A DNA stretch of 64,000 nt from Mojavia pulchra JT2-VF2. GTDB taxonomy: Bacteria; Cyanobacteriota; Cyanobacteriia; Cyanobacteriales; Nostocaceae. The notes under the pieces were generated by a model, which made no database searches, was not told the DNA's origin, and was given only the letters and a program-made list of their open reading frames with translations. Where the stretch lies: positions 186,001 to 250,000 of the forward strand of contig JAHHHN010000001.1 of NCBI GenBank assembly GCA_019359325.1, given 5' to 3'. Shown one piece after another: positions 37,152 to 42,365 of this stretch. Both the position numbers and the translations under genes were made by a program. Position 1 is the first letter of the stretch; every line of letters begins with the position of its first letter.

Positions 37152-37985
37152 TTAAGGTAGCCAAGGAAAAGTACGAAAATTTGGGGGGCGCTTTTCTAAA
37201 AATGCTTGCTTGCCCTCAGCTCCCTCTTCGGTCATGTAATACAGTAGGGTGGCGTTACCAGCGAGTTCTTGTAAACCAGCTTGTCCATCACAATCAGCGT
37301 TAAATGCTGCTTTGAGACAGCGAATTGCGATCGGGCTTTTTTCTAAAATCTCTTGCGCCCATTGAATACCTTCAGGTTCTAGTTGTTCTACTGGCACAAC
37401 GGTATTAACTAAACCCATTTCTAGGGCTTGTTGGGCATTATATTGACGGCAGAGAAACCAAATTTCTCGCGCCTTTTTTTGCCCAACGATACGGGCGAGG
37501 TAACTAGCCCCAAAACCACCGTCGAAACTGCCAACTTTCGGGCCAGTCTGTCCGAAAATTGCGTTATCGGCGGCGATGGTGAGGTCACAAATTAAGTGCA
37601 GGACATGACCGCCACCGATCGCATATCCTGCTACTAGGGCAATTACCACTTTTGGCATCGAACGAATCAGCCGTTGTAAGTCCAGGACGTTGAGGCGGGG
37701 GATACCCTCATCGTCAACATAACCAGCCTGTCCCCGTACACTTTGATCGCCACCAGAACAAAAGGCGTATTTGCCATCAGTGTGCGGCCCTGCACCTGTA
37801 AATAGGACAACGCCAATATTAATATCTTCGCGGGCATCACAAAAAGCATCGTAGAGTTCAAAGATGGTTTTGGGGCGGAAAGCATTGCGTTTGTGCGGGC
37901 GGTTGATGGTGATTTTAGCGATACCGTCGGTTTTGTGATACAGAATATCTTCGTAAGTTTTGACAGTTTGCCAGTTGATTTGCAT
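37152..37985 (-). CDS. menB: 1,4-dihydroxy-2-naphthoyl-CoA synthase
   Basis: 277 residues of the crotonase fold. MenB closes the naphthoate ring from o-succinylbenzoyl-CoA in phylloquinone (vitamin K1) synthesis, which in cyanobacteria supplies the photosystem I quinone. Diagnostic pieces: [13 protein letters not shown], the long [18 protein letters not shown] loop, the oxyanion-hole region [14 protein letters not shown] and [19 protein letters not shown], ending NFRTFPWLP. Length and ends are normal. It stands alone, away from other men genes. The terminator at 37114-37145 lies six bases after its stop. Confidence 0.97.
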
Positions 37986-38125
37986 TGGTATGGAGTCCGC
38001 TGTTGTGCTTGAGAATTTTATCGCGGACGAAGGGACAAGCGATACCTGCGGTGGGCTACGCCTACGCTAAAATTAGTCTCTCCAGCCTTTACAATCAGGG
38101 CTGGTAATTGAATCGCTATAGAAAA

Positions 38126-38950
38126 ATGCGACGCGACTCCATCTTTTACAAATTGTTCAAGCAATTTCCGGGTTTGCTGTTTGAATTGGTATCACCACCC
38201 CCAGATGCAGCAGACTACCAGTTTGAATCGGTCGAGGTGAAAGAAACAGTGTTCCGGATAGATGGAGTGTTTTTACCCCCCGCTAATGCTTCCTTCAAAA
38301 TAGTCTTTTTTGCCGAGGTGCAATTTCAGAAAGATGAAGACTTGTATCACCGCTTCTTCAGCGAGTTGTTTTTATTTCTCTATCGCCACTCAATTCGTTA
38401 CGATGACTGGTTTGGGGTGATAATTTTTCCTTCTCGCAGTCTTGAACCTACGAATTCCACAATTCACCGTGCTTTATTGGAGAGTGGTCAAGTCCGGCGA
38501 GTCTATTTGGATGAGTTGGGAGATTTACGACAACAACCTTTGGCAATAGGGTTAATGTTGCTGACGAATATTACCTCTGAAACAGAAACCTTGGAAGCAG
38601 GGCGGTTTTTGCTGGAAGAAGCAAAGGCTAAATCAGAACAAGCGATAATAGATTTAATAACAACGATTATGGTCTACAAGTTTTCTACCCTGAGTCGAGA
38701 GGAAATTGAAGCGATGCTGGAACTAAATTTGGAGGAAGAACCACGGGCTATTCGGGAAGCCAAGGAAGAAGGAGAAAGAAATATCATTCTACGACTACTA
38801 GACCGCCAGGTGGGTGTGATTCCTAATAAGCTTATATCTCAGATTCAAGAGTTATCGGTAGAACAGTTGGAAGCTTTAGCTGATGCTTTGTTGGATTTTT
38901 CTACTCTTGCGGATTTGGAAGGGTGGTTACAAGGTCAACCAAGAGGGTAA
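38126..38950 (+). CDS. Rpn/PD-(D/E)XK-like protein with DUF4351 tail
   Basis: About 274 residues from ATG 38126 (MRRDSIFYKLFKQFPGLLFE). The N-terminal region (FRIDGVFLPP, IVFFAEVQFQKDEDLYHRFF) carries a D-x(n)-E-x-Q pattern like the PD-(D/E)XK nuclease core of the DUF2887/Rpn family; the C terminus (VIPNKLISQIQELSVEQLEA and DFSTLADLEGWL) is a DUF4351 domain. These proteins are numerous in filamentous cyanobacteria; some relatives promote recombination. A TTG start at 38108 is also possible. It lies at the edge of an accessory patch followed by a broken helicase. Confidence 0.85.
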   Translation: MRRDSIFYKLFKQFPGLLFELVSPPPDAADYQFESVEVKETVFRIDGVFLPPANASFKIVFFAEVQFQKDEDLYHRFFSELFLFLYRHSIRYDDWFGVIIFPSRSLEPTNSTIHRALLESGQVRRVYLDELGDLRQQPLAIGLMLLTNITSETETLEAGRFLLEEAKAKSEQAIIDLITTIMVYKFSTLSREEIEAMLELNLEEEPRAIREAKEEGERNIILRLLDRQVGVIPNKLISQIQELSVEQLEALADALLDFSTLADLEGWLQGQPRG

Positions 38951-39003
38951 ATCTCACGCAGAGGCGCGGAGAACAAGGGCAATCACACTCCGGTAAAATT
39001 ATC

Positions 39004-39120
39004 ATGGCTACAAATAAAGATTCTCGCAGTGAAGAAGCATTTGCAGCTTTGATGAATGTGAAGCTGCAAGACACGCGGGTGTATCAAGAAGATGTTCCCT
39101 TTGCTTTGAAGACAGCATAG
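39004..39120 (+). pseudogene. Possible fragment of a second Rpn-like protein
   Basis: 38-codon frame MATNKDSRSEEAFAALMNVK, continuing LQDTRVYQEDVPFALKTA and then stop. The QDTRVYQE string resembles the linker before the tail of Rpn-like proteins. It begins 53 bp after the DUF4351 gene and runs into the broken 3' end of the helicase gene on the other strand. Best read as a remnant left at a rearrangement junction near 39107-39125; the match is from memory only. Confidence 0.4.
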
Positions 39121-41111
39121 AAGTGTGCTTTTCAAAAAGTTTAACTAGTTTATTGACTTTTGAATTTTCGCGTGCAGGTGAGATTTTTCTTACTAGCTGT
39201 GCTATTTGTGTGTATATTTTAATTTCTTCATCACAAACTTTTTGATATTCTGCTAAATGTGTTAGCCAGGATGGGAGCAAATCATCAGAAAGCTTATTGT
39301 TAGGAAGTTTCCTTTTATAGGTTTCTAATTTTTCAATAATGTTTCCAGAGTGTGTTTTAGAAGTTGTAAATTTGAATTCATTTAGAACTACTTTTGTTCC
39401 TTCTATAAGTTCTATTAAAGCTACTCTCGAAGACCTCAATGTTGCTTGTACAGCAAATATTGCTAGCGTATTTGCTGTATTTAACCTCATCTTAATATAA
39501 GCTTCCTCTCCAATTTCAAAATAATAGTCAGTCTTTTCTAATTTTTGTAGATATACAATTCCCTTTAACTGTTTAGCGAGATTATTAATTTCTAAAGCTA
39601 TTAATTTGTCCTTTGTTGTTTCTTTAGTACCATAAGTGTGACTCTCAGTTTTGGGATATCGACATAATCTTCCAAATTTATCTTTATACTTCTCTGGTTC
39701 TTGTTCAATTAAATTTTTAAATTGTTTTTTAGTTCTACGGACAATAAATTTTTTAATATAATTTCTTAAATTCTCTGTTTCTTTAGCATTCTTCAATAAT
39801 CCACCTTTTTTCAGTCTTTTTAACTGATTTAATTCATCATCATCTAGGTTATCGACATCAAGCATTTCTATCAAGCGTAATAAATCTCTGACTTGCTTGC
39901 TAATAGGTGTGGCAGTGGAAAGAATAATATAGTCAGCTTTATGCTTTGAAATATTATCACTTCGCTGAGATTTTGAATTTAAATAATTATGAGCTTCATC
40001 TATAGTTAAGATATTAGCTATTTGAATTTTTTTTCAAAATATTTCTATGTCTACATTTATGAGAATGGCTTAATAATCCCATTGAAACCTGTGAACTCTG
40101 AGCAAAGCCAATATCAACAGATTCTTGATGCCAATTGTTTTGTACTATTGGCGGACATATTGTCAATATATATGATTTATTGATTCTGTCAGATTCCCAC
40201 AACCAGTAGAATAGTAATAATTGAAGTGTGCTGATGAGCTTAGTCTTACCAGAACCAGTCGGATCGGCAATCAAGACACAACCTTGAGTTTGTAATATAT
40301 ATAATGCTTGTCCTAAACCATATCTCTGTGCAGGCCACAAGCTAATATTATTTAATTTTTCATATAGTTGAGGAAATTCTTTGAACCAATTGCATTCTAG
40401 GATTTCTGCAATCGCTCTCGCCAAAGCTTCTTCCCAAGATGTTATTGACATTAGTTTTTCTAATAAATCTATGATTTCATCTTTGTAATCTTGCCCCAAT
40501 TTATAATAATTTTCTGCAATCTGCTCCATTCCTTCGTACTGTTGTTTTTCAAAAAGTATAATAGAATTCTTATGAACCCTGGCATTAGCTTCTAACTGTT
40601 GAGATAAACCATTTTTGCTAAAGTTAGAGGAACCTGAAATGGCATGACTTTCGCCAATATAAAGTTTTGCATGAAAATTATCCGAAATTTTAAAATGGAG
40701 TTTACCAGTTCTAATATACTCAATAGTTTTAATAATGTTTCCGCCCTTCAATAAGGAATATCCACGCTCTAACCAGTAGTCTTTTATTTCTTTTTGTAAA
40801 TCAACTCTTTTCCAAAACTTTCTGGGGCGGCTATCAGGCTCCGAACCAAGAAGAATACGGACGGAATTAATTGTGGATATATCAACATCAGCATTAAAAA
40901 TATCTATGATATTTCCCAGCGAGCTAAATCCTGTGTTTATTAAATAATTTTCACTTGAATTAATATCTTTAATTACTTCTTGCTTAACATTTCTCTTTTC
41001 ACTAGGAAGATTGAGAGGAAATAATGCATTAGGAGGCCATTTCATGTTAGAGTTTTCGTTATCTAAATTAGACAGTGGTTCAGATTCATTACCTTTTGAT
41101 TTTTTAGCCAT
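39008..41111 (-). pseudogene. PLD-nuclease/SNF2-type helicase gene, frameshifted and 3' truncated
   Basis: From ATG 41111: a PLD-like domain with a single HKD motif (FHAKLYIGESHAISGSSNF), then helicase motif I (IADPTGSGKTKLIS). The frame ends at 40014. The neighbouring frame carries the rest: IQIANILTIDEAHNYL (motif II), YIILSTATPISKQVRDLL (motif III) and FIVRRTKKQF. The frames meet at a run of eight A (T8 at 40027-40034); seven would join them as RHRNILKK-IQIANILT. After LVKLFEKHT the homology stops at about 39121, so the second RecA domain (motifs V, VI) is missing. Likely once a defence-type helicase; now probably inactive. Confidence 0.8.
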
Positions 41112-41501
41112 TTTTATTTACTATTAATATCTGTGACAAAATGACAGGTCAATGGAGTAGCGCCAAGCCCAGAAATCAATTTATATTAATTATGAATCTT
41201 GGCTCTCCGCTCCTTGAATACTTTCAAAATCAGTAAACAAAATACTGATTTGGTACAATAGTACTACAAAAGTGGTATCATACAAAAAATTAAAAATTAG
41301 TCACTCGCACATAAGATTAGTGTGAGTGACCATCGCACTGTCTAAAATTCTAATTTTTTAGAATGTTATGCTAGGTTCGTACTCTACATATTGCTGGGCA
41401 TTAACACCAGGATTCCACTACAGGCAATTGCTTTTCTAGATGCTTGTGTTTTATTGTGGAAGAGCGATTCGGGCTATTAGCACTTTGTAAAAAGGTGAAC
41501 T
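41112..41501. other. 390-bp intergenic region
   Basis: Upstream of the helicase pseudogene. An imperfect inverted repeat (TTAGTCACTCGCACATAAG with AGTGTGAGTGACCATCGC) lies at about 41297-41336. No gene seen. Confidence 0.4.
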
Positions 41502-42365
41502 TCAACGCAAAATTTGATCAATCATCCGGTTTGCTTGGGAACCATAACCGCCGCCAAATAAATTGAAGTGATTCAAAATGTGATACAGGTTGTAGAGCGT
41601 TTTTCTCTGCTCATAACCTGCATCTAAAGGAAAGACTTCGTTATAACCTTTATAAAAAACGGTTGGGAAACCGCCAAATAATTCTGTCATGGCGATATCA
41701 ACTTCGCGATCGCCAAAATAAGTTGCAGGATCGAAAATCACCGGTTCTCCTGACACAGTACACCCAGCATTCCCTCCCCACAAATCGCCGTGTACTAAGG
41801 AAGGTTGCACCTGATGATCTGCCAATAATTCTGGGATAGCTGCTAGCAACTTGTCTTGCTTGGGAAAAGTACTTCCTCGCCGCCTAGCTAACTGAAATTG
41901 ATAACCCAGGCGATGTTTAACATAAAATTCTACCCAGTTTGCTGTCCAAGTGTTGATTTGCGGCGTAGAACCAATAGTATTGTTGATTTTCCAACCAAAA
42001 CCTTGTGCGCTAGTTGCTTGATGCATCGCCGCCAACTTACACCCCATCTCTTCCCAAGATTTGCTATTCCCTCCTCCCATTTCCAGCCACTCCAATACGA
42101 TGTAGCTAGAATTACCAGCCGTACCCCAGCACAGAGGTTTGGGAACACGAATACTAGCTGTTGTCAGCATTTCCTCTAACCCCAGCGCCTCAGCCTCAAA
42201 CATGGCTACTTGCGATGCTTGATTCAGCTTGACGAAGTAGGTGCATTGATTATCAGAGACAGCATAACCCTGATTGATGCACCCACCACTCACTGATCGC
42301 TTTTGCTGACTCTGAAATTTTTCGCCAGTCACCCGGCTAATATGGGCATCTATTTCAGTCCACAT
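41502..42365 (-). CDS. Fructosamine-3-kinase-family protein
   Basis: 287 residues, protein-kinase-like fold (FN3K family). Catalytic loop SLVHGDLWGGNAGCT and metal-binding segment VIFDPATYFGDREVDIAMT are intact, with the N-lobe Lys region in CTYFVKLNQ. Family members phosphorylate ketosamines on glycated proteins, leading to deglycation; some small-molecule kinases share the fold. It begins 42 bp downstream of the M16 peptidase gene and is probably co-transcribed with it. Full length. Confidence 0.92.
   Translation of the reverse strand: MWTEIDAHISRVTGEKFQSQQKRSVSGGCINQGYAVSDNQCTYFVKLNQASQVAMFEAEALGLEEMLTTASIRVPKPLCWGTAGNSSYIVLEWLEMGGGNSKSWEEMGCKLAAMHQATSAQGFGWKINNTIGSTPQINTWTANWVEFYVKHRLGYQFQLARRRGSTFPKQDKLLAAIPELLADHQVQPSLVHGDLWGGNAGCTVSGEPVIFDPATYFGDREVDIAMTELFGGFPTVFYKGYNEVFPLDAGYEQRKTLYNLYHILNHFNLFGGGYGSQANRMIDQILR

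Follow-up and report, generated by a model that had tools for sequence, protein, structure and literature searches.

Dpd and DISARM proteins are encoded as separate genes in multi-gene systems. The same arrangement, PLD nucleases as separate genes in multi-gene systems, is described in one account (PMC12458937). SauUSI is a type IV restriction enzyme in which a PLD nuclease, an SF2 ATPase and a C-terminal region are found in one polypeptide, and the motif reported for its nuclease is H(X)K(X)4E (PMC7913695). We analyzed a 64 kb stretch of DNA (the window, bases 186001-250000 of contig 3) from the draft genome of Mojavia pulchra JT2-VF2 (8.19 Mb, 85 contigs), in which a PLD-SNF2 helicase gene is found in two pieces. 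Neither this gene nor its place on the side of type I-D CRISPR loci is described in the literature searched, a set with partial journal coverage (PMC12839542, PMC10212523, PMC10952713, PMC12458937, PMC11090510, PMC7913695). We estimate at about 90% the probability that the locus is a pseudogene of one PLD-SNF2 gene of 1081-1083 aa, broken by a lineage-specific frameshift in an A tract and by a rearrangement that removed the 3' 39% of the gene together with the adjoining CRISPR-Cas genes. The homology, the frame break, the absent 3' part, both rearrangement joints and the gene neighborhoods were computed directly. In other respects it is an ordinary pseudogene.

The 5' piece (piece A, 40014-41111, minus strand) encodes 365 aa with a PLD domain and SNF2 motif I. 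The PLD motif, HxK with a downstream GSxN, is present as HAKLYIGE...GSSN at residues 147-163 (HAK at 147 and GSSN at 160); the domain scores 25.9 bits against PF13091, slightly below the cut-off of 27. Motif I (GSGKT) is located at residue 286, and residues 1-361 show 95% identity to both Nostoc sp. NMS9 and Nostoc sp. WHI. The second frame opens just past the stop at the A tract and runs to 39008 on the minus strand. Its helicase portion (piece B, 39121-40024, minus strand) carries SNF2 motifs II (DEAH) and III (TATP) and reaches approximately residue 662 of the 1081-residue relatives. The initial annotation, made from the DNA sequence of the window, had described two adjacent frames with motif I in one and motifs II-III in the other, and this description is correct. 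It had also extended the gene to 39008, but helicase homology ends at 39121-39124 and the bases 39008-39120 belong to the neighbor. The homolog in NMS9 has all five motifs, at residues 286 (I), 371 (II), 399 (III), 725 (V) and 749 (VI). A complete SF2 motor in one frame is absent from the window, and any product made here would contain the PLD domain and motif I at most, without a complete ATPase. Neither piece contains a stop besides the frameshift, so the lesions must be young or, for the tract, perhaps an error.

A run of eight T (A8 on the coding minus strand) occupies exactly 40027-40034. It is the sole A/T run of at least 8 in the 64 kb, whereas 60 Markov-1 simulations gave a mean of 11.5; the window thus has fewer such runs than expected by chance, with no general excess. 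Within 39121-41111, one run of this length is close to chance (1.4 in 500 simulations). The window was aligned at the DNA level with the relatives WHI, NMS9 and Komarekiella atlantica (loci L003, L004 and L005). At the position of the tract the relatives read AAAGAGA (WHI), AAAGAAA (NMS9) and AAAGAGA (Komarekiella); the homopolymer is absent in all three and each has an interrupting G. Since all three relatives keep the G and are one base shorter, the G has been lost and the tract lengthened by one base in this lineage. Over ~1990 aligned bases the window and NMS9 show 96% identity, and the only length difference is the one extra tract base. Measured against the homologs, the frame break is real, as had been proposed when the A8 tract was first noticed. 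The tract length rests on one assembly, and a sequencing error at this place would not explain the 3' loss.

Homologs were looked for in two sets of genomes. A scan of GTDB species genomes with six peptide patterns, a method that finds close relatives only, gave three loci. Nostoc sp. NMS9 has a single unsplit gene (1081 aa) beside the gene for FN3K (fructosamine kinase), and Komarekiella atlantica also has an unsplit gene beside FN3K; its listed length is 1083 aa, or 1081 aa when counted from the second ATG. Only the 5' part (581 aa) was found in Nostoc sp. WHI, ending near a contig end. Piece B has matches at E <=1e-54 in 5 of the 217 genomes of the family (this genome, NMS9, Komarekiella, WHI and G014, the last with 41% identity); the next best match has an E value of 2e-8 and six genomes are without any match. 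A sample of the phylum (386 genomes, E 1e-40) added two further homologs, in G327 and G255, and this sample undercounts: NMS9, Komarekiella, WHI and G014 are missing from its positives. The distant homologs in G014 (1082 aa) and G327 (1097 aa, one frame) are single genes too. The G255 copy (L077:6766-10464, contig C162) has an in-frame TGA between the PLD part and the motor, where NMS9 has the invariant W226. It is otherwise colinear, matching G014 at 37% of 879 positions, with the motor part still alongside. The contig has 68-71% G+C in a genome rated 7% contaminated and is probably a contaminant; the TGA could mean that this is a third broken copy or that the genetic code differs. An intact homolog encoding the two parts in separate genes would have spoken for two genes. 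None was found among these copies, and the two-gene interpretation was rejected: the sole homolog with a stop between the PLD part and the motor (G255) is cut elsewhere.

In the WHI copy the interruption falls after residue 565 (L003:9691-10084 and the end of L041). An identical 36-base terminal sequence is present, inverted, at both WHI contig ends, and TTTAA is found on either side of the insertion. The inserted end matches eight plasmid records, three of them at >=80% of its length, and an ISH3-family transposase is annotated in two of those three. An ISH3-like element has broken the WHI copy independently, and at the FN3K site two of the four copies found are broken, by different means. 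A plasmid or phage origin of the helicase gene was considered and rejected: the 25 plasmid records matched all fell short of 80% query coverage, with identities below 60% at the best place of each, and the search of phages with the same query gave no match. The G+C content of the helicase gene stretch is 28-34%, against mostly 40-49% in the flanking genes, as would be expected for an acquired gene.

The helicase homology stops at 39121-39124 (breakpoint at 39120-39125), near residue 662 of 1081, and the gene has lost its 3' 39%, which includes the C-terminal region as well as motifs V and VI. When the full-length protein was searched against the whole genome, the 3' part was not found, and a second or relocated 3' half in the same genome was rejected on this result. 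Besides the two window pieces, the query matched contig C2 (E 2e-8, 28% identity) and contig C39 (E 2e-4, 33%, query residues 627-762); these two matches appear to be general helicase similarity. The 3' loss had been taken as an argument for decay, and with motifs V and VI not found in the genome that argument holds. The adjacent gene had been called an Rpn-like fragment, but it is full length (38108-38950, plus strand): DUF2887 is matched over 1-200 of 200 and DUF4351 over 2-59 of 59 positions. Immediately next to the helicase lies a degenerate repeat of the tail of this Rpn-family gene (39005-39120, plus strand), which matches the repeats of relatives to ~39077. Degenerate copies of the tail follow the Rpn gene in several relatives as well (window 38950-39077; L046, L047 and L056), as if the 3' end of the gene had been duplicated repeatedly. 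An enoyl-CoA-hydratase-family gene (37152-37985, minus strand), which we take to be menB, adjoins the Rpn gene here and also in G018 and G137 (NMS9).

Two joints were located in the genome. At joint 1, blastn similarity to the menB-Rpn region of G018 and NMS9 continues until ~39077, and the helicase is found from 39121-39124 onward. In G018 and NMS9, menD sits 1.6 and 2.5 kb beyond the Rpn gene; in the window, menB-Rpn and the tail repeats pass directly into the helicase at 39121, and the menD gene of this genome is located on contig C14. Joint 2, on C14, has the order far flank of the Komarekiella CRISPR locus, 2OG-Fe(II) oxygenase gene, menD. The oxygenase homolog of Komarekiella is found inside the type I-D locus between csc1 and cas6, and the interval from there to the helicase breakpoint contains Csc1, Csc2, Cas10d/Csc3, a small gene, Cas3', a WCX/WYL-type regulator and the 3' part of the helicase. 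Also absent at the C14 joint are Cas6, Cas4 and Cas1, which in Komarekiella lie across the oxygenase gene from this interval. Both joints, on C14 and at position 39121, therefore combine the same two ancestral places, and the 3' end of the helicase appears to be a rearrangement breakpoint. One event for the two joints, as well as the order of the two lesions and their recency, is what we infer from these comparisons. The evidence for both joints comes from a draft of 85 contigs, and the parental arrangement of C14 is deduced from Komarekiella alone, the NMS9 flank being different beyond its cas remnant. The 2OG-Fe(II) oxygenase gene is also found between csc1 and cas6 in WHI and beside cas6 in the NMS9 remnant (L038:5827-6447, L066:2789-3409 and L036:7674-8294 for the oxygenase genes).

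FN3K (41502-42365, minus strand) flanks the helicase in the close relatives. In Komarekiella, NMS9 (with a cas remnant) and WHI (across two contigs), the helicase has FN3K on one side and the regulator/cas side on the other. A type I-D locus (Cas10d/Csc3, Csc2, Csc1, Cas3', Cas6, Cas4 and Cas1) adjoins the gene in Komarekiella and the interrupted gene in WHI, and a remnant adjoins it in NMS9. Among the matches listed, FN3K and Csc3 lie no more than 20 kb apart in 22 of the 102 genomes compared, in 11 genera; the count omits at least two more genomes (G023 and G069), and in neither are the two genes near each other. Only Komarekiella among those 22 also belongs to the five genomes with the helicase. 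In 11 genera of the family, FN3K recurs 4-9 kb from the type I-D Csc3. The FN3K side may well be a long-standing location of type I-D CRISPR in the family, and this site has apparently been emptied in the genome studied here. The I-D locus is gone from the FN3K site, and a type I-D locus with a CRISPR array is found on contig C29, with FN3K on another contig. The C29 locus (L062:7214-9468 and on) is 92% identical to that of Komarekiella from csc1 through cas10d, and no helicase remnant is found beside it. Its array has 33 repeat copies found. A CRISPR remnant in the window was rejected: the region 38900-41600 contains no direct repeats of at least 22. No cas gene was recognized by eye from product names among the listed ORFs around the G014 and G327 copies, and the gene therefore looks like a CRISPR neighbor, not a Cas component. 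Association with I-D loci at independent sites was not seen; the three adjacent cases share one FN3K-side site.

Put together, the PLD-SNF2 gene, which in close relatives has FN3K on one side and a type I-D CRISPR-Cas locus on the other, carries two lesions in this genome. One is the one-base length change in the A tract in this lineage. The other is most probably a chromosomal rearrangement: it fused the menB-Rpn region with the middle of the helicase, deleted the 3' 39% of the gene along with the CRISPR-Cas genes next to it, and produced the counterpart joint on C14, like a reciprocal exchange with the middle lost. If so, the locus illustrates a route of defence-locus loss, in which one rearrangement appears to remove half of a helicase gene and a CRISPR-Cas locus and to leave two matching scars.

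The possibility that slippage in the A tract toggles a functional PLD-helicase, making it a phase-variable defence gene, was raised in the initial annotation. It is a tempting one: the only long A/T run in the window falls exactly on the frame break and the relatives are one base shorter there. However, such runs are below chance in the window (1 vs 11.5 simulated), the tract is not conserved, with a G within it in 3/3 close relatives, and the gene of WHI carries an insertion element. Tract slippage cannot restore the helicase because the 3' 39% is not found in the genome, and motifs V and VI are absent in whichever frame is read. Phase variation is thus extremely improbable and the question is settled as gene decay. 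A different objection is that the frame break could be a sequencing or assembly error, the 3' truncation alone being real. Homopolymers are error-prone on some sequencing platforms. The rest of the frame is without any other break and constraint is visible in the window-specific changes, both of which would suit an error; as assembled, though, the change goes beyond length, the interrupting G of the relatives being missing as well. We consider an error at the tract unlikely, while giving it some weight.

An error at the other lesion, that is, a misassembly at 39121 with the intact gene and its CRISPR locus simply unassembled, would be conceivable for a draft in 85 contigs. Against it, the genome is rated 100% complete, the 3' helicase piece was not found anywhere in it, and the counterpart joint exists independently on C14. 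The interval 38940-39140 has no other match in the genome except one 24-bp stretch; joint 1 is therefore not in a genome repeat, which speaks against a repeat-driven misassembly. We regard such a misassembly as very improbable. The 5' piece might instead be kept as a small stand-alone PLD protein of 365 aa. Substitutions unique to the window are nonsynonymous in 17 of 38 cases, compared with 76% expected without constraint (p = 2.6e-5). The constraint signal is carried by piece A (9/24 nonsynonymous and 15/24 synonymous, p = 4e-5), while piece B alone gave 8/14 nonsynonymous (p = 0.10). The G255 copy, in which the TGA likewise separates the PLD part from the motor, could be read in the same direction. 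But the motor part of G255 persists alongside on a probable contaminant contig, PLD and motor are in one frame in the close relatives, the acidic residue of HxK(x)4D/E is variable in the family (E, K or D), and the constraint on piece A may predate a recent break. Changes unique to NMS9 are nonsynonymous in 11 of 22 cases and those on the Komarekiella side in 84 of 148, and relaxation on the window branch is no greater than in these intact relatives. The break is recent; constraint after the break cannot be claimed. Retention of a stand-alone PLD protein is improbable, and we retain the interpretation of a recently broken pseudogene of a single PLD-SNF2 gene.

The intact NMS9 protein shows SNF2-rel_dom and Helicase_C above the Pfam cut-offs and PLDc_2 at 26.9 bits, slightly below 27. 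HxK and GSSN are invariant across three homologs, whereas at the acidic position NMS9 has E, Komarekiella K and G014 D. The C-terminal ~300 residues contain no named domain, and past residue 770 no Pfam family scored above cut-off. The predicted structure of the intact protein had a mean pLDDT of 32.7 (five-row alignment) and was unusable. Matches among solved structures comprised 16 distinct sequences, only helicase parts of SNF2/Rad54, CHD1L, SMARCA-type and eIF4A proteins. The layout had been called typical of defence helicases. The PLD plus SNF2 layout stands; that it is typical of defence is at most suggested, since no defence-family model in PADLOC or NCBIfam fits the whole protein. A role in defence is indicated, among the evidence collected, only by the CRISPR neighborhood in the close relatives.

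The PADLOC family PLD_Helicase (PDLC02193) shares with this protein its name and the general idea of a PLD-helicase. Scores of 27-29 bits were obtained, with a best stretch of 48 (NMS9) or 73 (G014) residues, and membership failed, the best stretch being limited to the second RecA domain. The PLD part is weakly similar to DpdK and DrmC and the motor part to DpdE and DrmD (PADLOC, NCBIfam); piece B scores 25.5 bits against DpdE, for which the NCBIfam cut-off is 500. A Dpd or DISARM component was rejected, as no family-level match to DpdE, DpdK, DrmC or DrmD was obtained; the matches are partial and far below family level, and both parts are in one gene here. Among the characterized enzymes found, the layout is closest to SauUSI: both have a PLD nuclease and an SF2 motor in one chain, and HAKLYIGE has the same motif form as the SauUSI nuclease. 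The protein studied here is unlike SauUSI in having a motor of the SNF2 family (PF00176), a length of 1081 aa and an E that is not conserved in the family; within its last 300 residues no target-recognition domain was identified. SauUSI is absent from the solved-structure matches, and the likeness is one of layout and motif description. By this analogy the intact protein is a putative ATP-driven DNA nuclease. It is possible, and we propose it tentatively, that the parent was an undescribed stand-alone SauUSI-like anti-phage protein, acquired beside the type I-D CRISPR locus in some Nostocaceae and lost repeatedly, in this genome along with that locus.
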